From: a virus
IMG/VR virus record: IMGVR_UViG_3300032770_000002
Span: 166,254-230,253 of that record
Length of the DNA stretch: 64,000 bases
Direction: 5' to 3' (one strand)
Both the position numbers and the translations under genes were made by a program. The notes under the pieces are model-generated. The model was not told the origin of the DNA. It worked only from the letters and a program-made list of their open reading frames with translations, and searched no databases. Shown in pieces: positions 604 to 58,634 of this stretch (within the stretch, counting starts at the first letter, position 1; every line of letters begins with the position of its first letter).

Positions 604-882
604 GTGAACTACATCGTTTACGAAGAAGACGGTTTCGGAGTGGTGGAGTCACCTTGCGTTGAAGGGCGAAGTCTTGGCGTGTTTTCAGGGACGGAAGCTG
701 AGGTCGCGGCCTACTGTGAAGCTGAGACGCGTAAACTCCACCCGAAGCGAACGAACTGGGATTCACCGCAGATTCGTTTTAAGCCAGCGATTCAACTTAA
801 CCCAAATCACGTAGAATGGCAATCTTCATTAGTTTCGAAGGGGACGAGTGTGTCGGAAAGACCACACAAGCAAGCATCTTGA
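604..882 (+). CDS. Hypothetical 92-residue protein overlapping tmk
   Basis: GTG-initiated frame starting 12 nt after the preceding stop. The first ~70 residues (MNYIVYEEDGFGVVESP...) have a normal acidic, phage-like composition. The last ~22 codons overlap thymidylate kinase in another frame, which is longer than the 1-8 nt overlaps typical of this genome. The N-terminal part looks genuinely coding; the end may be extended by loss of an earlier stop. Function unknown. Confidence 0.5.
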   Translation: MNYIVYEEDGFGVVESPCVEGRSLGVFSGTEAEVAAYCEAETRKLHPKRTNWDSPQIRFKPAIQLNPNHVEWQSSLVSKGTSVSERPHKQAS

Positions 883-1478
883 CGGCTCGGCTTAAGGCCT
901 CGCGCATCCCGGCCATCTTGGTCCGAGAACCTGGTGGGACGCCGTTTGGCGAAACATGCCGATCGATCCTAAAGGACCCAAACAACGACCTGTGCCCGGA
1001 AGCTGAGCTGCTCTTGATGAACGCTAGCCGCTCGCAACTTGTCAGCACAGTCATCTTGCCAGCTTTGAATGAAGGCGTTACCGTAATTGCCGATCGCTTT
1101 CATGACTCGACCATCGCCTATCAGGGTTACGGGCGTGAATTGGGACAGAAGGCCGAAGACGTTGTCAACGTCGCCATCGGTGACGTCATCCCAGACATTA
1201 CCTTTTACCTGTGGGCGGCCAAGGGCACGAAGGAACGCCGACAAATTCAGCGTGGAGCTCCGCCAACTGACAAGTTTGAGTCGCTAGACCAGGCCTTTTT
1301 TGCTAGGGTGCGTGAAGGCTACGAGCACATCATGACTCATAATGCGCGCGTTGCGTGCATCGAATCTAGCGGCGCCATTGACCAGGTTTCAGACGCAATT
1401 TGGAGCAAGCTACTCAGCTGGAAGGAGTGGTGCGTAAATCGGCCCAAAAAGCCCTGGGAGCCAAGTCTCAGCTTGTGA
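816..1478 (+). CDS. tmk: Thymidylate kinase (dTMP kinase)
   Basis: Would phosphorylate dTMP (or a modified dNMP) to the diphosphate with ATP. P-loop EGDECVGKTT lies at residues 8-17, EPGGTP at 38-43, and the DR motif with substrate-binding segment DRFHDSTIAYQG at 93-104; 220 residues is the normal family length. The start is set by the P-loop lying 8 residues from the N-terminus. In a phage that also has PurZ and a hydroxymethylase-like enzyme in this window, the substrate could be broader than dTMP, as for the T4 dNMP kinase; that part is inference. Confidence 0.93.
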   Translation: MAIFISFEGDECVGKTTQASILTARLKASRIPAILVREPGGTPFGETCRSILKDPNNDLCPEAELLLMNASRSQLVSTVILPALNEGVTVIADRFHDSTIAYQGYGRELGQKAEDVVNVAIGDVIPDITFYLWAAKGTKERRQIQRGAPPTDKFESLDQAFFARVREGYEHIMTHNARVACIESSGAIDQVSDAIWSKLLSWKEWCVNRPKKPWEPSLSL

Positions 1479-10668: not shown

Positions 10669-11171
10669 ACGCCCGCAATCTTATCGACCGGTTGGTTGAA
10701 ACGTCTGACTTGACGTTTGTCCCGATGGACGCTGACGAGATCCGGCAGGTTCAGTCTATTGCCGCTGGACAGCTGGCCAACGTGGACAATCTTTACTTCA
10801 TTAACCAGGACATTACTGATTATCACAGCCTTAACATCGACATCCCGCAGGAGTATTTGCGCAAGAAGGTTGGACACGGCCTTGAATCGGGTGACGTTCA
10901 CGGCGAGTTTTACGGATTCGGTCGAATGGCCTTCACACCTTCATCTCTTTTACGGTCTGAAATTGGAAGAGTTCCAGTTGTCTCTGGCTTGCACGTCATG
11001 GTGTTAAAGAGCAGCCAAGGGTGGGTTATTGGAACCACTCGCGGAGGGTCATACGGTGGCATAACTTTTTACAAGGACCACCCGATGCATGACCTCAACG
11101 CGGCCATCCAGAAGTTCATTGCCACGCTGGAAGTCATTGCAAATGGACAAAATTCCCGGTTTGACAGCTGA
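10665..11171 (+). CDS. Hypothetical protein with MNARNLID N-terminus
   Basis: 168 residues from TTG 10665, which overlaps the upstream stop (TTGA); an upstream ATG in frame would create a long overlap and was rejected. The N-terminus MNARNLIDRLVE matches those of the neighbour at 10072 and of the small minus-strand gene at 29987. No domain recognised in the body (GEFYGFGRMAFTPS, VVSGLHVMVL). Its 3' end overlaps the convergent PurZ-like gene by 38 nt. Confidence 0.7.
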   Translation: MNARNLIDRLVETSDLTFVPMDADEIRQVQSIAAGQLANVDNLYFINQDITDYHSLNIDIPQEYLRKKVGHGLESGDVHGEFYGFGRMAFTPSSLLRSEIGRVPVVSGLHVMVLKSSQGWVIGTTRGGSYGGITFYKDHPMHDLNAAIQKFIATLEVIANGQNSRFDS

Positions 11172-12126
11172 CGAACATGTCTAGCCGCTTGGCGTAGGGC
11201 GTCAGTCTATGGAAGTCGACCCACTCCAGAAAGTTGTCCAGGTCATTCTGGTCCAAGTTGGTCAGCCCGAGATAGTCAAGGAACGTGAACATCAGCCCGT
11301 CTGGGCGCGCAAGCTGAAGGCTGCGCATAAATTCACCCGTTGAAAATTCAAAGACGCGGCGCACGCGCTTCGTCACGGTTGTGATTTCGGGCTTTACGCC
11401 CAATGACGCCCACGTCAGCTCCTTTCCAGCACACGGCCCAGACGGCCCGCCAGTCCGTATCGGATATGTCCTAAAGACGCCATAGTAGCTCCAGTCAAGT
11501 CCACCAAGCCCATTGCGCTCAACTGCAACCCTCGGCAGCGTTGAGCGTGACGTGACGTGTGGAAAGAGCCCAAAATTCGTGTCGAGCAACAGGCCTTGTG
11601 AGCACTCAAAGATGGCCAAGTTGGAACTGATGTGCGAGATCAGGTTGAAGTAGGCCTCGTTGTCAACGACGACGATGTCCTGGTTGAGTGAGAAGAAGTC
11701 ATGTTCAATGACTGACTCAACACGGCGGTGGATAAACTTCCCTGCCCGGGCCATCCCTGTCCCTGACCCAGTTGACGAAATTCGCCTTACCAGGTCGGAT
11801 TCGTCGGCCTTCATCTCAGGCATTAAGACGGCCGCGTGCTCGTGGATGTAAATCGGCTTTTTGACGGCGCGCCAGTCTCGTTGAAGAAGTTCGAGTTCGA
11901 TGACTGAGTCTGGGCCCATCAAGATCGAGTCGGCCCAAAAGCTTGAAGCCGGGATGGAGCGCGTTGACCCTTGGGTGCTCGTGTGTCCGGAGTTCGGGCC
12001 GTTTTCACCAATGACGGTCAAGTGGAGTCCCGGGTATTCAGCCCTCAGTTTCTTGGCCAAAAATTCAGCCGCTGAGGCTTTTCCTTCACTGCCATATTGC
12101 CCGCCAAAGACAACGACGTGACGCAT
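11134..12126 (-). CDS. purZ: PurZ-like adenylosuccinate synthetase (2-aminoadenine pathway)
   Basis: 330 residues, shorter than cellular PurA (about 430). The N-terminal P-loop reads VVVFGGQYGSEGK: the position of the catalytic Asp13 in PurA (GDEGK) is Ser13 here, the substitution known in phage PurZ, which joins aspartate to dGMP on the route to dZMP. Other PurA landmarks are present: GPNSGHT with His48, ISSTGSGTGMA (116-126), FECSQGLLLD (173-182), FPHVTS and RTYPIRTGGPSGP. A partial family A polymerase match to Z-genome phages exists at 51640. No DatZ or MazZ was seen in the window. An ordinary phage PurA is less likely given the Ser. Confidence 0.82.
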   Translation of the reverse strand: MRHVVVFGGQYGSEGKASAAEFLAKKLRAEYPGLHLTVIGENGPNSGHTSTQGSTRSIPASSFWADSILMGPDSVIELELLQRDWRAVKKPIYIHEHAAVLMPEMKADESDLVRRISSTGSGTGMARAGKFIHRRVESVIEHDFFSLNQDIVVVDNEAYFNLISHISSNLAIFECSQGLLLDTNFGLFPHVTSRSTLPRVAVERNGLGGLDWSYYGVFRTYPIRTGGPSGPCAGKELTWASLGVKPEITTVTKRVRRVFEFSTGEFMRSLQLARPDGLMFTFLDYLGLTNLDQNDLDNFLEWVDFHRLTPYAKRLDMFVSCQTGNFVHLQ

Positions 12127-12150: not shown

Positions 12151-12663
12151 ATGCATCGTTCCATCAAGATTATCTCCGGTGGTCAGACGGGGGCCGATCG
12201 TGCTGGTTTAATTTTTGCTCGCGACAACAACATCCCGTATGGAGGCTATGTGCCTTTGCGTCGAAAGGCCGAAGACGGGGTGGTGCCGATGATCTTCACC
12301 GAGATGACTGAGTCGGCATCGTCAGATTATCGTGTCAGGACTGAGTTAAACGTGAGAGAGGCCGACTGCACGATCGTCTTTACACGCTGCCCGCTCAGTG
12401 AAGTGGCCAGCGGGTCATGGCTGACGATTGCCTTCGCAAAGAAGTATGGGAAGGAGTGGCGGCACGTTGACGTCAACAAGCCGAACATGAACGAGGTTGA
12501 CAAGTGGCTTGAGATGCTTTACGCCAGGTGGCATCACTACGGAAGCGGGCTTCAATTCACGATCAACGTCGCTGGTGGGCGCGAGTCAAAGAACCGCGGC
12601 ATTCAAGACGCGGTCCTGGCGCTGTTAAAATCATCCACATTTTTGTTTACAAATCAAGGTTAG
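12151..12663 (+). CDS. SLOG/YpsA-like nucleotide-binding protein
   Basis: 170 residues from ATG 12151. The N-terminal KIISGGQTGADRAGLIFA is the hallmark of the YpsA/'molybdenum carrier' branch of the SLOG superfamily, followed by GYVPLRRKAEDG, RTELNVREADCTIVF and GSWLTIAFAKKYGKEW in the expected order. Known family members bind or cleave nucleotides or nucleotide sugars; the substrate here is unknown. It is divergent from the PurZ-like gene (24 nt between starts). Its last residues (FLFTNQG) are encoded by the promoter element of the next gene. Confidence 0.8.
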   Translation: MHRSIKIISGGQTGADRAGLIFARDNNIPYGGYVPLRRKAEDGVVPMIFTEMTESASSDYRVRTELNVREADCTIVFTRCPLSEVASGSWLTIAFAKKYGKEWRHVDVNKPNMNEVDKWLEMLYARWHHYGSGLQFTINVAGGRESKNRGIQDAVLALLKSSTFLFTNQG

Positions 12664-12674
12664 TGTGGTATATT
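12642..12674 (+). promoter_or_regulatory. Sigma70-like promoter with TTTGTTTACAAA element (leaderless)
   Basis: Element at 12642-12653 includes -35 TTTACA (12646-12651); spacer 17; -10 TATATT (12669-12674) preceded by TGTGG. The ATG at 12681 follows after exactly 6 nt, where transcription should begin, predicting a leaderless mRNA. Confidence 0.88.
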
Positions 12675-12680
12675 AACGGC

Positions 12681-13769
12681 ATGATACGGATTGACAACGC
12701 GCCTGTTCCAAACGTGGTCTCGGACCGCAAACTGGGCCTTGAGATCGAGATTGATCTCGGCAACAATGGGGACCTCAGCGACCTTCCAGACATTCAAGGC
12801 TGGATCAAAAAGGGTGACGGCTCGCTCACGCACGGCTACGAATACACGTTCAACGGACCGTGCACACCGTCAACATCGAAGGAACGGTGTGAACGATTCT
12901 GTCAGTCGATTAAAGATGTGAACGTTCACCGCTCTGGCGGCTTTCACGTTCATGTCCAGGGCAACAACTATTCACACGAGGACGCATACAACCTTTGCTT
13001 GATTTACACGAAATTCCAGGACGTCATCAACAAGCTTGTGGCGCCTTCTCGAGTCAGCAACACCTACTGCGAAGCCTATTCGTGGACGTCACTCCGACAT
13101 CACACTCCGGCGTCATTCGCCCAGGCCTACAATTTGACGCCGCTTGTCAGCAGTCGTGGCTCCGCGAAAAACGTGGCCAACCGCTATCGGGCAGTCAACA
13201 CGAACATGCTAGCTTGCCGTGACGAGGCCGACCGCAGCATTGAATTTCGACAGGGCAGTGTCAGCAAGCGATTTGGCGTGGTCTACGGGTGGCCTTGCTT
13301 CCTTGCGGCATTGACTGAGTTGGCCCAGTGCAAAGACCTCTTCGACGAAGTCCTTAGTGCGCGGTCCATTCAACTTCGCGACCTCTTGGCCGTGCTTCAC
13401 GCCTGGGAGTCCAAGTCCGGTTCAACGGGCGTCGCCGACTGGGTGGAGTGGCGATACAATTACCTGAATCAGAAGCCTGACGACGCTGAACTTCGCCTCG
13501 CCTTGGAAGCCATCGCTGAGAAGCCAATCGGTCTTTATGGCCTGTCTCGCAAGATCGACATCAACCTGGCCGTGACAAAGCGGATCATTGATGACCTCTT
13601 GGCCAAGGGCCTCATCTTCAAGCGGGCCAACTCGACAGCTTATGTCACGTCCTATGAGTTTAAGGCTGAGGCCGACCTGAAGCAGATGATTGAGGCTTTG
13701 AAGAGCCGAGCGGCCAGTCTTACACCGCCTCCGCCAATGCCGGCCACCCTGCCTCCGCCACAAACATGA
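12681..13769 (+). CDS. Amidoligase-family protein 1 (COOH-NH2 ligase)
   Basis: 362 residues from ATG 12681. Amidoligase signatures: GLEIEID (19-25), DGSL ... GYEYTFNGP (46-60), GGFHVHVQG (86-94) and SIEFRQGS later. The family has a glutamine-synthetase-like fold and uses ATP to form amide bonds. The C-terminal region (IGLYGLSRKIDINLAVTKRIIDDLL) looks like a winged helix, followed by a proline-rich tail (TPPPPMPATLPPPQT). Two relatives occur at 23281 and 57534, and a glutamine amidotransferase at 58683. An earlier in-frame start would run through the promoter and was rejected. Confidence 0.85.
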   Translation: MIRIDNAPVPNVVSDRKLGLEIEIDLGNNGDLSDLPDIQGWIKKGDGSLTHGYEYTFNGPCTPSTSKERCERFCQSIKDVNVHRSGGFHVHVQGNNYSHEDAYNLCLIYTKFQDVINKLVAPSRVSNTYCEAYSWTSLRHHTPASFAQAYNLTPLVSSRGSAKNVANRYRAVNTNMLACRDEADRSIEFRQGSVSKRFGVVYGWPCFLAALTELAQCKDLFDEVLSARSIQLRDLLAVLHAWESKSGSTGVADWVEWRYNYLNQKPDDAELRLALEAIAEKPIGLYGLSRKIDINLAVTKRIIDDLLAKGLIFKRANSTAYVTSYEFKAEADLKQMIEALKSRAASLTPPPPMPATLPPPQT

Positions 13770-15651: not shown

Positions 15652-16002
15652 ATGACAGAATTGTTGACAGGCCGATCACGGCGAGGTTCAGAACCTTGGC
15701 TAGGTGTCGACCTTGACGCTACTTTGGCCACCCACAAAGAGGGCTCTGGCATTGATTCCATCGGTGAGCCAGTGCCTGGCATGCTTGAGAAGGTTAAGCG
15801 CGCATTGCGGGCCGGACGCAAGGTGAAGGTCTTCACCGCGCGAGCGGGTGACCCTAGGCAAATTCCGCTCATTCAGCAGTGGACAGTCAAACATGGGCTT
15901 GGAAAGCTCGAAGTGACCAACGAAAAAGACGAGAACTGTGAAGAGATTTGGGACGACCGTGCCAAGAGCGTGGTTCCTAACAAAGGACGCTTTGCCAACT
16001 AG
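15652..16002 (+). CDS. HAD-family phosphatase-like protein
   Basis: 116 residues. LGVDLDATLATH (17-28) is HAD motif I (DxD nucleophile), VKVFTAR gives motif II, and WDDRAKSV carries the late acidic motif. Small HAD proteins of this pattern are common in phages and related to polynucleotide-kinase or nucleotide phosphatase domains. The substrate is unknown; a nucleotide or 3'-phosphate end is plausible. Confidence 0.8.
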   Translation: MTELLTGRSRRGSEPWLGVDLDATLATHKEGSGIDSIGEPVPGMLEKVKRALRAGRKVKVFTARAGDPRQIPLIQQWTVKHGLGKLEVTNEKDENCEEIWDDRAKSVVPNKGRFAN

Positions 16003-16006
16003 ATTT

Positions 16007-17143
16007 ATGAGTGAAGAGAACCAACAGGTGCCGGAATTTGACGTTCTAACTCCAGACATTCCACTGCCGCAAGTCGTGGCGAGGCAGGAAATTGCGGATG
16101 AACGGAAGGGAGCGTTTCGATTCAGCTTTATCGGGTCTGGCCAGGGTGGCGGGAGAATTGCGGCGACATTCCGCGCCCTGGGCTACAAGCGCGTTTGCGC
16201 GATCAACACGGCGCGTCAGGACCTGGCGTCGCTCCCAGCCGACGTTAAGAAACTCGTTATCGGCGATGGAGAAGGAGGTGCTGGCAAAGACCCAGCCGTG
16301 GCGAAGGCAGCGTTTGATAAAAACGCTGAAAATGTCCTAGACCTGATGCGGGCGTCATTTGGCCAAGTGTATGACCGAACAATCATCTGTGTTGGGGCCG
16401 GCGGTGGAACTGGCGCTGGAACGGTGATCGGCCTTGTCGACAAAGCGCGTGAGCTTCAGGTTGCCAGCAAGTGTCCGACTGACAAGGTCGGCGTCATCGT
16501 TGCCCTGCCCAAGGTGACCGAAGGCCGGCGTCCAAGCATCAACGCTCACACCGTCTTGTTATCATTGGTCGCCTACGTTGAACAGGGCTTTGTCTCACCG
16601 CTTATCGTTCTTGACAACGAGCGAATGAGCTCACTCTATCCTGGGCTCGCGATCGATCCATTCTGGGACACGGCCAATCAAAGCGTCTGTCGGCTGTTTG
16701 ACCTCTTCAACATGATCTGCGTTCAAAATTCGACATACACCGCGTTCGACCCGGCTGATTACAAGTCGATCCTCGACTCAGGCCTGATCGTCTTTGGGGC
16801 CACGCCCGTCGCCAACTGGTCGGAGGCCGGCCAAATCAGCTCCGCACTGCGAGACAACTTGAAGAAAAACATTCTTGCAGGAGGTGTCAACCTGTCAACT
16901 GGAACGGTCGCCGCGGCAATCGTTATTGCTGGAAAGAGCGTCTTAAGCCAAGTGCCGCACGAGCACCTCGACCAGGCCTTCGATCAATTGACAAGGTTGT
17001 TGAAAACAAACAGCATGGTGCACCGTGGCATCTACAGCGGAAACAAGGACTCCATGGCCATTTACACCGCAATTGGCGGCCTGGCCGCACCGACTGAGAA
17101 GCTGGACGAGCTGGCCAAAATCGGCGGGATAAGCGGTAAATAA
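16007..17143 (+). CDS. FtsZ/tubulin-superfamily GTPase
   Basis: 378 residues from ATG 16007. The nucleotide site is built by FIGSGQGGGR (41-50), the tubulin signature GAGGGTGAGT (130-139) and INTARQDL. FDPADYKSILDSG later matches the T7 loop region whose acidic residues trigger GTP hydrolysis in the next subunit. Should polymerise into filaments. Phage tubulins (PhuZ, TubZ types) centre or rotate the replicating phage nucleus or segregate plasmids; this one is closer by eye to FtsZ in the G-box. An N-terminal tail of about 36 residues precedes the GTPase domain. A terminator follows. Confidence 0.88.
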   Translation: MSEENQQVPEFDVLTPDIPLPQVVARQEIADERKGAFRFSFIGSGQGGGRIAATFRALGYKRVCAINTARQDLASLPADVKKLVIGDGEGGAGKDPAVAKAAFDKNAENVLDLMRASFGQVYDRTIICVGAGGGTGAGTVIGLVDKARELQVASKCPTDKVGVIVALPKVTEGRRPSINAHTVLLSLVAYVEQGFVSPLIVLDNERMSSLYPGLAIDPFWDTANQSVCRLFDLFNMICVQNSTYTAFDPADYKSILDSGLIVFGATPVANWSEAGQISSALRDNLKKNILAGGVNLSTGTVAAAIVIAGKSVLSQVPHEHLDQAFDQLTRLLKTNSMVHRGIYSGNKDSMAIYTAIGGLAAPTEKLDELAKIGGISGK

Positions 17144-18321: not shown

Positions 18322-21135
18322 ATGAATGAGCCAATGCCAACACTGAATGAGCGCGTTGAGATCTTAGATGACCTACCAAAACCGATAATTGACGACGCTT
18401 CTGCTGCACCTGAACCAGCTCGCCTGACGCGAGTCTTTTCAAAGTCAGGAATTTGCCCATTTGACGACGTCACGTGGATCAAGCGAGACGTCGACATCAC
18501 CGATGACAAGGGTAAGGTCGTCTTCACGCAGAAGGGCGTCGAGACTCCAGAATTTTGGTCCGACCTGGCTGTCAAGATCGTCGCTTCGAAGTATTTTTGG
18601 GGCGAAAAGAACACCGACCAGCGTGAACACTCCGTGCGCCAGTTGATTCATCGCGTGTGTGACACCATTGCGACGTGGGCCGTTGAAGGACGATACGTTC
18701 ACCCTGACGACGAGACGCTCTTCTACAACGAACTTTGCTGGCTTTGCCTGCATCAACACGCGTCTTTTAATTCGCCCGTTTGGTTTAACGTTGGGCTGTT
18801 CCACCAATATGAAGCCGGGCGCGGCAGTGAAGGCGGGTGGGCTTGGGACCAAGACCTCGGCGAAGCTGTGAGGGTCAGGACGATGTATGAGAAGCCACAG
18901 TGCTCGGCTTGCTTCATCGTGTCCGTCGCTGACAACATGGAGGCACTCCTTGACTTGGCCAAGACTGAGGCGATGCTCTTCAAGTTTGGAAGCGGAACTG
19001 GGACGGACCTGACGCCCATTCGTTCATTTCGTGAGAAACTCTCCGGCGGTGGGTCGCCGTCAGGCCCGATGAGTTTTTTGCGCGTCTACGACCAGGTTGC
19101 TGGCATCGTCAAGTCAGGCGGCCGAACTCGTCGTGCGGCGAAGATGAACACCATCCGTGACTGGCACCCTGACATCGAGGAGTTCATTAACGCGAAGCCA
19201 GTTGAGGAACGAAAAGCGCGGGCCCTAATCGAGTCAGGCTATGATGGCTCCATTAACGGTGACGCCTACTCGAGCGTGATGTATCAGAATGAGAACCTTT
19301 CTGTTCGAGTCAGCGACCAGTTCATGAAGGCAGCCACGAATGGCGATGGAACGTGGTGGACAAAAGCGGTCACGAGTGGAGACCGGGTTGAGAAGAAAGA
19401 CGCCAAGGACTTGCTGCACAAGATGGCCGAAGCAGCTTGGTTCTGTGGTGACCCAGGCGTGCAGTTTGACGGCGTCATCCAGCGTTACCACACGTGTGCT
19501 GGAACGGAGCCGATTCACAGCACAAACCCATGTGCTGAATATGTCTTCATCAACAACACGTCGTGCAACCTCGCCTCAATTAACCTCGTCAAGTTCATGG
19601 AAGGCGAGGTGTTCAACGTCGAGCGGTTCAAAGCCGCGGTGCGGCTCATCTTTACGGCCCAAGAGATCTTGTTTGACAACTCGAGCTATCCAACCAAGAC
19701 GATTGCCGAGAACTCGCACATCTTCAGGACTGTAGGGCTTGGCTTTGCGAACCTTGGCTCGCTGTTGATGGGCCTTGGCATTCCATATAACTCTGACCAA
19801 GGCCGTAGCATTGCCGCTTCGATTACGGCCATCATGACGGGTGAAGCTTACGCCACGTCGGCTGGAATGGCCAAGACGCTGGGACCGTTTCCGGGGTTCT
19901 ATGACGCGCGCTGTTCGCACGTCAAGCACCCGGTCAAGGCGAACAATGTTGAGTCGATGCGCGACGTCTTAAACCTCCACGCCGCACACGCGAGCAAGCT
20001 CAAGACTCCAGGGCACCGCTATCTCGATGCCGCCGCAAACGAGTGTTGGCTGCGGGCGATTGGACTGTTCAACTGCCACGGTGTGCGCAACGCCCAGGCA
20101 ACGGTCATTGCGCCAACTGGAACGATCGCATTCATGATGGACTGCGACACGACCGGGATAGAGCCAGAGCTTAGCTTGGTCAAGGTTAAGTCGCTCATCG
20201 GTGGCGGGTCCTTGACGATCGTCAATCGCTCCATCGGTCGGGTGCTTCGCCAGCTCGGCTACAGTGAGCCTGAAATTGATGCCGCGATCAAACACGTGGA
20301 GAAATATGGCCACCTTGAGGCCATCAGCGAGGACATCAAGTCGCCGCTCAGGATTGACGACCACCACGACGTCTTTGACACGTCACTGCCGGCCGGGCCG
20401 AGCAAGCGCTCCATCCCATACATGGCCCACGTCCAGATGATGGCTGCAGTTCAGCCGTTCATCTCTGGGGCGATTTCAAAGACGATCAACATGCCAGAAA
20501 GCTCCACGGTCGAAGACGTGAAGCAGGCTTACGTGGAAGCGTGGAAGTCTGGTCTGAAGTGTGTGGCCATCTACCGTGATGGCTCTAAACGAGCCCAGCC
20601 ATTAAACGTCAAAAAGTTTGGTCAAGACAAAGCAGCGGACCCGGCGTTAAATGGCCACGGTGTTTATCTCCCAAATCGACACCGGCTCCCTGACACCCGG
20701 AAGGCCGTGACGCACAAGTTCAGCGTTGGTGGCCATGAGGGTTACCTGACTGTCGGCCTCTTTGAAAACGACATGCCAGGTGAGCTGTTCATCACGATGG
20801 CCAAGGAGGGTTCGACGGTAGGCGGCCTGATGGACACGATTGGCACGCTGACAAGTTTGGCGCTGCAGTATGGCGTGCCACTCGAAGCTTTAATCCGCAA
20901 GTTTCGGTCAACTCACTTCGAGCCATCTGGCATTACGACAAATCCAAAAATCCGGATGTCGGCCTCGATCATCGACTACATATTCCACTGGATGGCCCTT
21001 GAATTTGACCACGATGACGAAGTTTCCAGCGTCAGTGACGAGGTAAAGACGTGCCCACATTGCGGCCACGTGGCGCAGCGTAGTGGGACGTGTTACACTT
21101 GCACGAATTGCGGAAGCAGTCTCGGTTGCAGTTGA
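18322..21135 (+). CDS. nrdJ: Adenosylcobalamin-dependent (class II) ribonucleotide reductase
   Basis: 937 residues. Makes deoxynucleotides from ribonucleotides using vitamin B12, needing no oxygen. Diagnostic parts: CSACFIVSVADNM, KFGSGTGTDLTPIR, the active-site NPCAEY with NTSCNLASINL, PTGTIAFMMDCDTTGIEP, and a C-terminal zinc-ribbon-like CPHCG ... CYTCTNCGSSLGCS typical of long NrdJ proteins. No intein or frameshift is seen. No beta subunit is needed. The gene anchors the nucleotide-metabolism block. There is no room for a cobalamin riboswitch in the 23-nt gap upstream. Confidence 0.95.
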   Translation: MNEPMPTLNERVEILDDLPKPIIDDASAAPEPARLTRVFSKSGICPFDDVTWIKRDVDITDDKGKVVFTQKGVETPEFWSDLAVKIVASKYFWGEKNTDQREHSVRQLIHRVCDTIATWAVEGRYVHPDDETLFYNELCWLCLHQHASFNSPVWFNVGLFHQYEAGRGSEGGWAWDQDLGEAVRVRTMYEKPQCSACFIVSVADNMEALLDLAKTEAMLFKFGSGTGTDLTPIRSFREKLSGGGSPSGPMSFLRVYDQVAGIVKSGGRTRRAAKMNTIRDWHPDIEEFINAKPVEERKARALIESGYDGSINGDAYSSVMYQNENLSVRVSDQFMKAATNGDGTWWTKAVTSGDRVEKKDAKDLLHKMAEAAWFCGDPGVQFDGVIQRYHTCAGTEPIHSTNPCAEYVFINNTSCNLASINLVKFMEGEVFNVERFKAAVRLIFTAQEILFDNSSYPTKTIAENSHIFRTVGLGFANLGSLLMGLGIPYNSDQGRSIAASITAIMTGEAYATSAGMAKTLGPFPGFYDARCSHVKHPVKANNVESMRDVLNLHAAHASKLKTPGHRYLDAAANECWLRAIGLFNCHGVRNAQATVIAPTGTIAFMMDCDTTGIEPELSLVKVKSLIGGGSLTIVNRSIGRVLRQLGYSEPEIDAAIKHVEKYGHLEAISEDIKSPLRIDDHHDVFDTSLPAGPSKRSIPYMAHVQMMAAVQPFISGAISKTINMPESSTVEDVKQAYVEAWKSGLKCVAIYRDGSKRAQPLNVKKFGQDKAADPALNGHGVYLPNRHRLPDTRKAVTHKFSVGGHEGYLTVGLFENDMPGELFITMAKEGSTVGGLMDTIGTLTSLALQYGVPLEALIRKFRSTHFEPSGITTNPKIRMSASIIDYIFHWMALEFDHDDEVSSVSDEVKTCPHCGHVAQRSGTCYTCTNCGSSLGCS

Positions 21136-21487: not shown

Positions 21488-21772
21488 GTGAAGACGCTCA
21501 ATTTGCAAGTCGGTGCGATGTGCGGCATGCCAAGCCAGACGTGCCTCATGTCCAAGAAAAATCGTGAAGCTCTTCAACTTGACGTCAACGGCCTGGTCGT
21601 TGTGCGGTCCAATGACCAAGACACCTCGGTGGTTCGACGCATCCTTAAGGCTCCAAACATCCCGCAAAAGGACGCCTTCGTGTTCTTGTCACCTGACGAC
21701 CTAAACTTGCTCAATGTCAACATTGCAGACAACGTCGAGCTCAGCCAAGACACCGAGGGAGTGGAGACTTAG
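21488..21772 (+). CDS. Hypothetical protein, double-psi beta-barrel-like
   Basis: 94 residues from GTG 21488, chosen because it sits 7 nt after the -10. After a Cys-containing N-terminus (GAMCGMPSQTCLM) the pattern VNGLVVVRSNDQDTSVVRRIL ... DAFVFLSPDDLNLLNV resembles Cdc48-N/double-psi barrel sequences. It overlaps the next gene by 59 nt, perhaps translationally coupled. The fold is a guess by pattern. Confidence 0.55.
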   Translation: MKTLNLQVGAMCGMPSQTCLMSKKNREALQLDVNGLVVVRSNDQDTSVVRRILKAPNIPQKDAFVFLSPDDLNLLNVNIADNVELSQDTEGVET

Positions 21773-22544
21773 CGACTTTCTTTTAAACGAAACCGAAGTG
21801 GCCTATCTGACGTGTTTGGCTAACGTCATGGACAATGGAAAACCGACCGGTCCAAGGGGCCAGCAAACGCGTGAAGTCTTAAACGCGTCATTCAAAATCA
21901 GGCACCCATCTTCAGCCCCAATTCGAACGTGTGACCTAGAACGGAACAAGGTCATTGCGGAGTATACCCACAAGGAGATGGAGCTTTATCTTAGCGGTTC
22001 GAATAGCGTCAGTGACTTTGCAAAGGCAAGCCAATTCTGGAAGAAAATTGCCAACCCAGATGGGACCATCAATTCGGCCTACGGTTATTTGATTTGGCAC
22101 GAGAAAAGCTGTGGTGACCCAACAATGGAGGTCCCACATTTTGAACCAGGACGGATGAATGGAAGTTTGGCCATGCGGACTCCGTGGGAGTGGGCCCGCA
22201 ATTCCATGCTTCAAGATAAGGACACCAGACAAGCATTCCTTCGGTTTAGCCTGCCACGTCACCAGTGGGTCGGCAACCGCGACCAAGTCTGCACGATGCA
22301 CGGTCACTTTGTCATCCGCGACGACAAGCTGAACTTCTCCATCGTGATGCGGTCAAATGATTGTTTTAAGGGCCTCGTCTATGACCTTCCGTTTTTCATT
22401 AAGCTCATGGAATTGATGGCCGACGAGCTGAAGCCGACTTATCCAAATCTCCAAGTTGGCGAGTATTTTCACCTCGCCCACAGTCTCCACATCTACGAGT
22501 CAGACATCCCAAAGATCTTGAAGATGCTAGGCAGTTCTGCTTAG
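21714..22544 (+). CDS. Thymidylate-synthase-fold dNMP hydroxymethylase (dCMP type likely)
   Basis: 276 residues. ELYLSGSNSVSDF and INSAYGYLIW are the TS N-terminal folate/active-site region. The catalytic cysteine is C193 in QVCTMHGHF, followed by MRSND (212-216). Where dUMP-specific thymidylate synthases have Asn (E. coli N177, GLPFN) this protein has Asp224 (KGLVYD). T4 dCMP hydroxymethylase also has MRSND and Asp at this place, and also MCT after its own catalytic Cys region. So the likely product is 5-hydroxymethyl-dCMP, made with methylene-tetrahydrofolate. A plain thymidylate synthase is the alternative. Confidence 0.75.
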   Translation: MSTLQTTSSSAKTPREWRLSDFLLNETEVAYLTCLANVMDNGKPTGPRGQQTREVLNASFKIRHPSSAPIRTCDLERNKVIAEYTHKEMELYLSGSNSVSDFAKASQFWKKIANPDGTINSAYGYLIWHEKSCGDPTMEVPHFEPGRMNGSLAMRTPWEWARNSMLQDKDTRQAFLRFSLPRHQWVGNRDQVCTMHGHFVIRDDKLNFSIVMRSNDCFKGLVYDLPFFIKLMELMADELKPTYPNLQVGEYFHLAHSLHIYESDIPKILKMLGSSA

Positions 22545-22545
22545 T

Positions 22546-23055
22546 GTGTCAAGACAAATCGTCCACTACTTGGGCCACGGCATGTCAGCCTGCATGCGGG
22601 AAGGGCCCCCTTCGCTGTGGCCTGACAACCATAAGTGGTCAAGTGACTGGAAGGACGTTACATGTGGAGAATGTCTCCTTGGAAAAAACGAAGTCCACAC
22701 GTTCATGATTTCGCCTGATGGTCGAAGCATCACGTGTCTTCGGTGCCACATGACGAGCTTTAATCCAACGGACGTCGAGCGACACTACTGCAGCTACTGT
22801 GATGTCTTCCATGACGACCTTTGGCCTCCAGCAAGGCGGGCGTGGATGCATTCACTTCTGGCCACGGTTAACCAAGTCTATGACGAAGACACGTTTTCGG
22901 TGACGGATCGACAAGGACAATCACACTGCATTTACGTTTCCAACCATGACGTCAATGTTGGCGACATCGGCATTCTTCGATATAACGATCGTGATTGGTC
23001 TTGGAAGCGGTTGGAAAAGCGCGAAACCGGCGTCGTCCTGATCTCCAGAAAATAA
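22546..23055 (+). CDS. Zinc-binding hypothetical protein
   Basis: 169 residues from GTG 22546. CGECLLG is followed by TCLRCHMTSFNPTDVERHYCSYCDVFHDD, whose CxxC pairs should bind zinc. The C-terminal domain (DTFSVTDRQGQSHCIYVSNHDVNVGDIGIL) looks beta-rich. Position right after the hydroxymethylase-like gene hints at nucleotide or DNA work, but no function is recognised. Confidence 0.7.
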   Translation: MSRQIVHYLGHGMSACMREGPPSLWPDNHKWSSDWKDVTCGECLLGKNEVHTFMISPDGRSITCLRCHMTSFNPTDVERHYCSYCDVFHDDLWPPARRAWMHSLLATVNQVYDEDTFSVTDRQGQSHCIYVSNHDVNVGDIGILRYNDRDWSWKRLEKRETGVVLISRK

Positions 23056-23086
23056 TTGTTTACAAACCTCAGAAGTGTGGTATATT
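23056..23086 (+). promoter_or_regulatory. Promoter with TTGTTTACAAA element (leaderless)
   Basis: -35 TTTACA (23059-23064), spacer 16, TGTGG-extended -10 TATATT (23081-23086). The ATG at 23093 is exactly 6 nt downstream. It drives the small repeat protein and amidoligase 2. Confidence 0.87.
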
Positions 23087-23092
23087 GGTTCC

Positions 23093-23281
23093 ATGAGTGA
23101 TGCACTTCGAGACAAAAATGGACGTGCCATCGGTTACGTGACCGAGGACAGCAGCCGCAAAACGGTCCGTGACGTCAACGGCCGGCCTCAAGGCAGCTAC
23201 GACTCACGAGACAACGCAACTCGCGATAAAAATGGGCGCGTGACCGGATACGGTGACCAGACATTCGGCTTTCTTCGATAA
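23093..23281 (+). CDS. Small D-x-NGR repeat protein
   Basis: 62 residues from ATG 23093. Three repeats are visible: LRDKNGRAIGYV, VRDVNGRPQGSY and TRDKNGRVTGYG, each probably a beta hairpin with an NGR turn. Its stop codon overlaps the start of amidoligase 2 (TAATG). As the leader gene of an amidoligase operon it could be a modified peptide substrate; this is inference. Similar D-x-NGR repeats occur in other bacterial and phage proteins of unknown role. Confidence 0.75.
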   Translation: MSDALRDKNGRAIGYVTEDSSRKTVRDVNGRPQGSYDSRDNATRDKNGRVTGYGDQTFGFLR

Positions 23282-24531
23282 TGAACTTGACGACATCAGT
23301 TGGGTTTGAACTCGAGTTTAGCGGGTCAAATCTTGACCGTGTTGAACGCGAGCTTCGCTCTAAGGGGATCGACTGTCACAATTACGGCCGGTGGCGCCAC
23401 TCTGACGGCGACCTGTGGGACCTTAAGACCGACTCGTCATGTGGGTTTGAAGCCGTCAGCCCGATATTGCAGACCTATGAGGAGCTGGTTGATGCTGCTG
23501 GTGTCGGCGCCTTGATCGCCAATGTCGGTGGAACTGCGACAGAGAGGTGCGGGCTTCACGTTCACATCGGCGGCGGTGACTTCAGTTCGCTTCAACTTGA
23601 AAACGTCTTTCGATTTTTCACACGGTATGAGTTCGCCTTTTTTCTCATGGTGCCTCCGGCTAGGCGGACAAACATCTACTGCAAGCGGCTTTCACCAGCT
23701 ACGATCAACTCAATCAAGCGGGCGTCATTTCAGCGCAATGACTGGTGGATTCACACGTGGACTGACAAGAATGTCTGGCTGAATGGGCGCCGTTGGCCGG
23801 ACATCAGGACGCTTGAGTTTCGCATCATGCCCGGGTCACTCAGCCCATACTTCATCATTGGCTACGTGACGTTTCTTCAGTGCGTGATCAACACGGTCAA
23901 GGACCGAACGATTAACTGGGGCATGGCTCGCAGCAAGGATGACCGCTCGCTCTTCCAGACGATGCTTGGTCAGTCCGGATTTTATGGCCCATGGATTAGT
24001 GAAGACCTTAAGGAACTCTACCTCACCGGGCGCAAGTGGGCGATCGAGCGGTATAAGCTGGCGAACGAGTTAGTGTCGGGTTTCTTTGAAATGACGCGGG
24101 TCGTTCCTAAAATCCCGTCGGTCGACTGCCGGCCAAGTTGGGACCGTGGAGACACATCGCTCCCACAACGGACACGCCGTGTGAGGCGACGAGTGCCGGA
24201 AGTAGAGGTGCGAAGCCCCGCGTCATCTCCGCCTCCGCCATCGACGGCTTATTCACCGATTCAGCAGCCTCAGTTTATAAGCTCAACGCCTGTGGTGACG
24301 TCATTTGCTACTCAGACGACGCAGACGATGCCAGAAATTTCAATCAGCAACGCTACCACTACTTCCGGCGATTGGATTGTCTCATGGGGACAAGGAGGAA
24401 CGAGCCACTTGAACATGGGCCAAGCTTCTAGCTCAGCGGAAACAACTCCAACCGCAGAACGCAGTGAAACGACAGCAACTCCGCCGACGCCGTCGTCCGA
24501 ATCTACACCGTCTGAATCTCAGGGCTCGTAG
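23281..24531 (+). CDS. Amidoligase-family protein 2 (COOH-NH2 ligase)
   Basis: 416 residues. Signatures: VGFELEFSG (7-15), TDSSCGFEAVSP (50-61), CGLHVHIGG (90-98) and TLEFRIMPGS. They are collinear with the proteins at 12681 and 57534. After the catalytic domain (about 270 residues) comes a long low-complexity tail rich in Pro, Ser and Thr (PASSPPPPSTAYSP ... TTPTAERSETTATPPTP). It probably forms an amide bond with ATP; the substrate is unknown. Confidence 0.85.
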   Translation: MNLTTSVGFELEFSGSNLDRVERELRSKGIDCHNYGRWRHSDGDLWDLKTDSSCGFEAVSPILQTYEELVDAAGVGALIANVGGTATERCGLHVHIGGGDFSSLQLENVFRFFTRYEFAFFLMVPPARRTNIYCKRLSPATINSIKRASFQRNDWWIHTWTDKNVWLNGRRWPDIRTLEFRIMPGSLSPYFIIGYVTFLQCVINTVKDRTINWGMARSKDDRSLFQTMLGQSGFYGPWISEDLKELYLTGRKWAIERYKLANELVSGFFEMTRVVPKIPSVDCRPSWDRGDTSLPQRTRRVRRRVPEVEVRSPASSPPPPSTAYSPIQQPQFISSTPVVTSFATQTTQTMPEISISNATTTSGDWIVSWGQGGTSHLNMGQASSSAETTPTAERSETTATPPTPSSESTPSESQGS

Positions 24532-57487: not shown

Positions 57488-57520
57488 TTTGTTTACAACT
57501 TCGGTTCGTTGTGGTATATT
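57488..57520 (+). promoter_or_regulatory. Promoter with TTTGTTTACAA element (short leader)
   Basis: -35 TTTACA (57492-57497), spacer 17, TGTGG-extended -10 TATATT (57515-57520). The ATG is 13 nt downstream, so a leader of about 7 nt. Confidence 0.83.
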
Positions 57521-57533
57521 CATCCCAGAGTTT

Positions 57534-58634
57534 ATGCCAAACGTTGATGAGAAACTGACATTCGGGATTGAGTTGGAAGGCGTGCGAGCCTCCTCTGAAT
57601 CGCAGGTCTTGGCCCAAATGTGGAACTTCACAAAGCGTTACGATCACTCCATCACTGACGACCACGGGCAACCGCTTCCTCGGACACTTGAAGAGGGCGG
57701 CGGCTTTGAATACATCACGCCTGTGCTGAGCGTCGATGTTCGCATGACCAACGCCGGTGAGCGATTGGCCATCAACTGGGGCACTTCACTGAATGCCATC
57801 CGCGACCTCTGTTTATGCGTCGCTCACGTCAACAAGTCGTGCGGCGTTCACATTCACCTCGGCCGCCCGGCAAGTGACAGCGTGACCCACTCGAAGTGGG
57901 AGCCAGAGCGAGTTCGGACCATGCTGACAGTCGGCATGCTCCTGGAGCCCAAGATTTTTGACGTCGTTCCTGAAAGCCGCCGTGGAAATCACCACTCGAA
58001 CTTCATTCGTTCACGATACTCCTCTGACGACATCTGCCAATTTTATCCGACTGGAAATGTGGTCGCCAGAAAGTTCGATAATCCCAAGCGGTATTGCTGG
58101 ATGAACCTCATTGAGACTCGGCGAGTGGGCAACGACACGCGTCCAGGGCGTGGTTCATCGACGGCTCTTGGAACGATCGAAATCCGGGCTCTTGGCAACA
58201 CAGCGTCTTACGACTACATCAGCGCTTGGACAGTCCTGTGGATGAAGATTGCAGCTTTCGTGGCCTACTTGCCATCATCGCTGGCCATGATGCGGTGCGT
58301 GTTTTCCGAAGAGCTTGCGTCGGACTTTGCGACACTGGCCAAGCTCAAGTCGACGGTCGACGAGAGCGTGGTGCTGCCGGCTGAACCGCCATCGCCGGCT
58401 CTGCCTCAGTTGACTCCTCAGCCAGCACCGCCGCGGCCACATCGACCGCTTCGTCGCCCGCTGAATGTGCTGGCCGAGCGTGAAGCTCGAAGAGAGCGCG
58501 CTCCACGTGAAGCTCGACAAGCTGGCATCCCGTCGCATGACGCAATTTTACGTGGGGCTGAACGGCTTGCTGAACCACAGACGCCTCAAATCCCGGCTGA
58601 AAATGACGGTCCGGTCGAGGAAAATCGTGACTGA
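57534..58634 (+). CDS. Amidoligase-family protein 3 (COOH-NH2 ligase)
   Basis: 366 residues from ATG 57534. Signatures: FGIELEGVR (10-18), GGFEYITPVL (56-65), CGVHIHLGR (103-111), and TIEIRALGN. Proline/Arg-rich C-terminal tail (PALPQLTPQPAPPRPHRP). Sits one promoter upstream of the class II glutamine amidotransferase gene. Third paralogue in the window. Confidence 0.85.
   Translation: MPNVDEKLTFGIELEGVRASSESQVLAQMWNFTKRYDHSITDDHGQPLPRTLEEGGGFEYITPVLSVDVRMTNAGERLAINWGTSLNAIRDLCLCVAHVNKSCGVHIHLGRPASDSVTHSKWEPERVRTMLTVGMLLEPKIFDVVPESRRGNHHSNFIRSRYSSDDICQFYPTGNVVARKFDNPKRYCWMNLIETRRVGNDTRPGRGSSTALGTIEIRALGNTASYDYISAWTVLWMKIAAFVAYLPSSLAMMRCVFSEELASDFATLAKLKSTVDESVVLPAEPPSPALPQLTPQPAPPRPHRPLRRPLNVLAEREARRERAPREARQAGIPSHDAILRGAERLAEPQTPQIPAENDGPVEENRD

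Follow-up and report, generated by a model that had tools for sequence, protein, structure and literature searches.

A linear IMG/VR virus record of 230,253 bp carries, in its right end, a gene whose product resembles PurZ, the phage relative of adenylosuccinate synthetase (PurA) that makes the precursor of 2-aminoadenine (Z); this end was analyzed as a window of 64,000 bp (positions 166,254–230,253 of record IMGVR_UViG_3300032770_000002). The locus raises the question of whether its phage makes Z and, if so, whether Z would replace all or only some of the A in its DNA. A sequence-only reading of the window had described a PurZ-like protein of 330 amino acids with Ser at the catalytic Asp position, encoded by a large phage that also has an FtsZ-like gene, and had proposed a possible replacement of A by Z in the DNA of this phage. 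The description is borne out by the ORF translation, HMMs, PDB search, structure model and trees discussed below, and by the FtsZ/tubulin-like match and the length of the record; the proposal, as stated, is not established.

The PurZ-like gene, its genome and its family

The PurZ-like gene (Table 1) has an intact frame from its ATG at bp 12126 to its stop at bp 11134, and its coding score is typical. It is a lone minus-strand gene among plus-strand neighbors, it shares 38 bp (11134–11171) with the 3′-end of a plus-strand ORF, and no promoter signals above chance were found around it. Ser13 is encoded by AGT (bp 12088–12090) and occupies the position of PurA Asp13, as judged from the ORF translation and alignment. 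The start of a divergent cpYpsA-type SLOG gene lies across a 24 bp gap from that of the PurZ-like gene; it was considered as a conserved PurZ partner and rejected, since none of 168 further PurZ or homolog loci (88 in viruses, 80 in chromosomes) has it.

Table 1. Positions of the features discussed (window coordinates, except for the two phage MaF61 genes)
Feature	Position	Strand	Basis or remark
PurZ-like Ser-type adenylosuccinate synthetase homolog, 330 aa	11134..12126	minus	ORF, families, PDB match, model
Nucleotide-binding loop GQYGSEGK (residues 9–16)	12079..12102	minus	alignment; Ser13 aligns with S-2L PurZ S23 and PurA Asp
Thr225 replacing Val (S-2L V241)	11452..11454	minus	122-row alignment
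Aspartate-binding loop tip TTVT (residues 249–252)	11371..11382	minus	alignment
Asp284 at S-2L Q308 position	11275..11277	minus	alignment
cpYpsA-type SLOG (nucleotide-fold) gene	12151..12663	plus	Pfam PF12694, 2.6e-36
Thymidylate kinase	816..1478	plus	PF02223, 2.8e-37 in window set; ORF assigned from sequence
FtsZ/tubulin-like protein	15938..17143	plus	PF00091, 3.7e-9 in window set
Ribonucleotide reductase large subunit, class II type	18322..21135	plus	Pfam; deoxynucleotide source
Family-A DNA polymerase, 1068 aa	51640..54846	minus	HMM, tree
MaF61 Ser-type PurZ homolog, ~90 extra residues	L248:8992–10335 (PQ858689.1)		between prohead and terminase genes
MaF61 Lyase_1-family (PurB-type) gene	MaF61 record 129885–130682		~10 kb from MaF61 PurZ

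The phage is a very large (jumbo), T4-like one. When 214 predicted proteins (63 + 88 + 63) were scanned against Pfam, T4-type structural genes were found in the record (gp23 capsid, gp20 portal, S77 protease and sheath), as well as NAD ligase, a DnaB-type helicase, glutamine amidotransferases, a carbamoyltransferase and radical-SAM proteins. A DNA-level search of phage records with the window's first 20 kb found no relatives, no relatives of the FtsZ/tubulin-like protein were found among phage records, and pattern searches of IMG/VR found no relatives of the FtsZ-like and PolA proteins; there is therefore no close relative with which to compare this phage. Its genome has three thymidylate-synthase-family genes (L009:3181–4068, L010:8539–9510 and window 21714–22544), one a canonical ThyA and two very divergent; an O-carbamoyltransferase gene (L010:6851–8542) adjoins one of them, which suggests hydroxymethyl/carbamoyl pyrimidine modification. 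At least four amidoligase-2 family members (including window 12528–13769, 23281–24531 and 57489–58634), two GATase_6 proteins, and QueC and NADAR domain proteins are also present.

The NCBIfam PurZ model NF038379 gives the top match of all models to the PurZ-like protein (7.9e-42, 143.5–143.8 bits), at a score below that model's curated cut-off of 300 bits; PurA models reach 84.3 and 60.5 bits (the short archaeal-type model matches at 7.3e-24 and the bacterial model at 1.3e-16). Pfam PF00709 (8.3e-18) and PHROG 1211, annotated as "2-aminooxy adenylosuccinate synthetase" (1.6e-41), also match. A PDB sequence search placed phiVC8 PurZ (6FM1, 1.5e-23) first, followed by S-2L PurZ (7ODX, 7.9e-18) and 7VF6, PurZ0 by its title (3.3e-15), with Pyrococcus horikoshii PurA below these (1.5e-11). 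Identity to any relative is about 30%; by these matches the homology to the synthetase family is far beyond chance. The AlphaFold2 model (pLDDT 85, pTM 0.86, with the last 25 residues unreliable) likewise finds phiVC8 PurZ first in the PDB (TMq 0.81), then S-2L PurZ and PurZ0.

Three trees were built, a quick one with 122 rows, a careful one with 73 rows and a resampled careful one with 59 rows, and in all three the PurZ-like protein stands next to the phage PurZ clade and lies outside its core. Support for the sister relationship is 100/96 in the 73-row tree and 99/92 in the 59-row tree, and exclusion from the 34-row PurZ core has 100/92 support in the former. Because its branch is very long (1.7–2.0), AU tests were run. 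Forcing the protein together with the phiVC8/S-2L half of PurZ is rejected (p 0.006), as is forcing it with PurZ0 (p 0.018); forcing it with the OH/L098 half of PurZ is not rejected (p 0.17), and with viral GSEGK proteins the value is p 0.12. The trees, HMMs, PDB sequence search and AlphaFold2 model thus put the protein on the PurZ side, its exact place being unsure. With PurZ0 (Arthrobacter phage Wayne group, Gordonia phage Ghobes; 7VF6) it shares the GGQYGSE loop and an Asp at the nucleotide-base position, but not, by the AU test, a common branch, and its phage lacks DutZ, DmtZ and DpoZ-1.

Active site of the PurZ-like protein

The active site was read from an alignment of 122 homologs, with positions as described for S-2L PurZ (PMC8342488). 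Retained are Ser13 (S-2L S23), Lys16, Asn45, His48, Thr119, Arg134 (the cross-dimer R146 of S-2L PurZ), Gln177, Thr192, Arg224, the TTVT loop tip and Arg256. Two of the three PurZ-type substrate residues (S23, T273 and Q308 in S-2L numbering) are present as Ser13 and Thr249, and the third differs. At Thr249 the protein follows PurZ and not PurA, which has Gly there. Asp284 stands where ATP-using phage PurZ proteins have Asn or Gln and where PurA, PurZ0 and most chromosomal homologs have Asp, and because of this residue, taken by itself, GTP is predicted to be the energy donor. (The ATP/GTP preference of PurZ0 and PurZ stated in PMC12884076 conflicts with that paper's own introduction.) Thr225 is found at a site that, apart from one Ile, is Val in the other aligned proteins; its S-2L counterpart, V241, adjoins the sugar 2′ position (PMC8342488). 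Read from the alignment, then, Thr225 and Asp284 are departures from ATP-using phage PurZ, and the Val-to-Thr change predicted to lie beside the deoxyribose is unique. Compared with the PurZ proteins of phiVC8, S-2L and Acinetobacter phage SH-Ab 15497, the window protein has the same fold, first-loop Ser, TTVT and full catalytic set, but is only about 30% identical and differs, besides Asp284 and Thr225, in reading GSEGKA rather than GSTGKG (GKA for GKG after the loop Ser).

The protein keeps 24 of the 25 columns that are invariant in 35 relatives, a pattern that speaks for an active site under selection and, as far as conservation can tell, for a protein that is probably active. That the gene is an inactive relic in decay might be suspected from its very long branch and from the change of five of 20 nearly invariant columns (at least 90% conserved; the other 15 are kept), but the intact frame, the typical coding score and the retained invariant columns make this very improbable. 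It is also quite unlikely that the protein is a diverged PurA, using IMP to make adenylosuccinate and so boosting adenine nucleotides during infection. The protein has the overall fold and chemistry of PurA and the short length of archaeal PurA (P. horikoshii 5K7X). In favor of a PurA, Asp284 resembles the PurA GTP site, and on the protein's long branch a forced grouping with PurA is not rejected (AU p 0.07); on the other hand, it branches outside PurA in both careful trees, the tree, HMM and fold evidence all favor PurZ, and it has Thr249 for the PurA Gly and Ser for the catalytic Asp (Asp13, whose conservation across the PurA group is 99%; PMC12884076).

Z partner genes, DNA polymerase and predicted extent of substitution

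HMMs for DatZ, MazZ/DUF550, MazZ-2-type, DUF5664-DUF550, DutZ, DpoZ-1, DpoZ-2 and PurB proteins were built from known Z phages and IMG/VR PurZ loci. The 88 viral loci compared comprise eight reference phages and 80 IMG/VR loci (mostly ±6 kb around PurZ, the best 80 of at least 542 relatives, on contigs that may be incomplete), and DatZ is present at 54 of them and a family-A polymerase at 69. The absence of DatZ and MazZ from the window, noted in the sequence-only reading, extends to the whole known sequence, so that its suggestion of partners elsewhere in the genome finds no support in the present, possibly incomplete record: no ORF of the 230,253 bp matches the DatZ, MazZ/DUF550, MazZ-2, DUF5664-DUF550 or DutZ models, and direct profile searches of the record likewise found no Z partner. 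Neither a PurB HMM match nor a Lyase_1 match was found in the record, and its predicted proteins contain no HD or MazG family member in the Pfam scans. A weak match between an HD-like protein of another PurZ phage record (L026:4288–5001) and an ORF of this phage (L011:13813–14235) was rejected on reading the sequence.

The only partner-HMM match in the record is the family-A DNA polymerase of the window. It clusters with SPO1-like and T5-like polymerases (97/95), outside both DpoZ-1 and DpoZ-2, and has about 300 extra N-terminal residues with CxxC and PITRC/MPIGS motifs; from its sequence we infer that this N-terminal part resembles the uracil-glycosylase-like domain that SPO1-type polymerases carry. 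The true Z phage S-2L likewise lacks an annotated Pol I and has only a PrimPol (PMC8065100). The phage also encodes a D12 class adenine-N6 methyltransferase by Pfam (likely L012:8928–9887, genome bp 86928–87887, with a YLDPPYGT motif), which suggests that its DNA still contains A or a base like it.

Complete replacement of A by Z is thus not supported for this phage. It would call for unrecognized analogs of DatZ, MazZ and DpoZ, or for partners beyond the known 230 kb, which we consider quite unlikely given the absent partner matches, the type of polymerase and the methyltransferase. In its favor, the linear IMG/VR contig may not cover the whole genome, Z phages have acquired their pool enzymes independently on several occasions (PMC12884076), and a NUDIX protein (L010:19325–19885) and the SLOG protein are nucleotide-related and have no assigned role.

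The reading that we favor, with slightly better than even confidence, is that the gene product is a working succino-2-amino-deoxyadenylate synthetase that has diverged fast, and whose pathway is completed by the host and leads to partial Z. Such an enzyme would join L-aspartate to the 6-position of dGMP, with GTP rather than ATP, to give succino-2-amino-dAMP; PurB and kinases of the host would convert this to dZMP and then to dZTP, and the phage's ordinary, non-DpoZ polymerase would insert some Z for A. Lacking DatZ and MazZ, the phage would neither clear dATP nor raise dGMP, so only partial substitution is expected. Klenow polymerase, like most polymerases, does not discriminate A from Z, and in Escherichia coli plasmid A-to-Z substitution reached 22.7% with the complete S-2L cluster and was lower with incomplete ones (PMC8342488); complete replacement of A is stated to require degradation of dATP (PMC12697855). 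Further support comes from other large phages that have a Ser-type PurZ but no DatZ or DpoZ, among them the cultured MaF61 with its Lyase_1-family gene (see below). Weighing against this reading are the score below the PurZ cut-off, the low identity and long branch with the AU values for PurA and chromosomal homologs, Thr225 and Asp284, the absent partners and the methyltransferase. With its partner genes missing from the known sequence, this phage may make some Z-DNA by itself.

Ser-type homologs in chromosomes and in other large phages

The loop Ser had been taken as a hallmark of phage PurZ. It is reported in 100% of the 147 phage sequences in the PurZ group of Poubanne et al., whose four archaeal members have Ser or Gly (PMC12884076), but it is found more widely. 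Pattern and tblastn searches of 84,980 species genomes gave 275 relatives with a Ser loop, many of them on large bacterial contigs, and Ser is present in PurZ0 proteins and in all 45 aligned chromosomal homologs of cellular organisms from many phyla; these 45 were fetched with a pattern that itself contained Ser, so the frequency of Ser among all homologs cannot be inferred from them. Ser is therefore not phage-specific, and was rejected as a diagnostic of PurZ. The short Ser-type PurA homologs (GGQ[FY]GSEGKG, ~350 aa) form a large chromosomal family in bacteria and archaea (L102–L181, for example L123, L125 and L137), and most of their genomes also carry an ordinary PurA: a full-length PurA (443–615 bits) accompanies the Ser-type homolog in 12 of 15 cellular genomes checked, and the other three, small archaeal MAGs, have no second, full-length PurA.

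The strongest rival to partial Z is that the window protein has a different function, common to this chromosomal family, with some other (deoxy)nucleotide as substrate or a place in a pathway not leading to DNA, so that the gene would be an auxiliary metabolic gene of a phage whose DNA has no Z. The window protein resembles the homologs from Bradyrhizobium, Sphingomonas, Terriglobus, Nanoarchaeota and others in its Ser, length class and GSEGK loop, and its Asp284 is of the kind that most of them have at the base position, as against GSTGK and Asn in core phage PurZ; Ser is shared by the whole (pattern-selected) chromosomal set, whose genomes mostly have a full-length PurA as well, forced grouping with seven of these homologs is not firmly rejected (AU p 0.06), and there is no Z-cluster. 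Against this, the best trees put the protein beside phage PurZ with strong support and not nearest to the chromosomal homologs, and it keeps the TTVT loop and an RRVFEFS stretch, both characteristic of phage PurZ and missing from many chromosomal homologs. We regard such a function as unlikely, yet deserving of more weight than the other rivals to partial Z.

PurZ is not confined to this one large phage. Four of the IMG/VR PurZ contigs (among the best 80 of at least 542 relatives) exceed 100 kb, namely L067 (105 kb), L100 (142 kb), L078 (268 kb) and L098 (287 kb); DatZ and MazZ are absent from all four, and a polymerase matching the DpoZ profiles from three. The cultured Flavobacterium phage MaF61 (168 kb), annotated with T4-type neck, portal and baseplate, has a Ser-type PurZ (ORF141, loop GSFGSSGKGK) and no DpoZ, and its single DatZ match is not credible (E 0.0087, 27 residues). 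The records of L078, L100 and MaF61 have a family-B polymerase. Because these contigs and MaF61 lack DatZ, stand-alone PurZ appears to recur in large phages. Like the window protein, the proteins of MaF61 and of L078, L098 and L100 (142–287 kb) are of Ser type and come from large phages that lack DatZ and DpoZ, with MazZ missing as well from these three contigs, but they form separate branches of the PurZ tree (L098, L100 and L026 are one branch within core PurZ in the 73-row tree), and MaF61, unlike the window phage, has a Lyase_1-family gene. The 67-kb PurZ phage whose record (G080) includes L026 has a family-B polymerase match at bp 22597–23388 that spans three in-frame TGA codons, so this phage may reassign TGA. 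Another candidate for a PurZ in a huge phage, LR756503.1 (L249, a 735-kb uncultured phage), was rejected, as its 400 aa protein has GDEGK and is an ordinary Asp-type PurA.

The Z-DNA phages for which we found descriptions in openly available papers are small; alongside PurZ they encode pool-cleaning enzymes and, in most cases, DpoZ. No description of PurZ in jumbo phages was found in the open-access literature. We suggest, tentatively and with more doubt than assurance, that in the lineages of large phages represented by the window phage, L098/L100/L026, L078 and MaF61, a stand-alone PurZ serves partial or timed use of Z in A-containing DNA, or makes another succino-purine nucleotide. If this is true, such a PurZ, working without dATP removal or a Z-specific polymerase, would modify purines in a way that differs from the known complete Z genomes. 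Should a lone PurZ in jumbo and T4-like phages prove active, Z or its precursor could be seen to serve phages that do not replace all of their A, and the practice of recognizing Z genomes by PurZ, or by the Ser on its own, would come into question. Since MaF61 is in culture, the question is directly testable there, and the function of the chromosomal Ser family would clarify the origin of PurZ.
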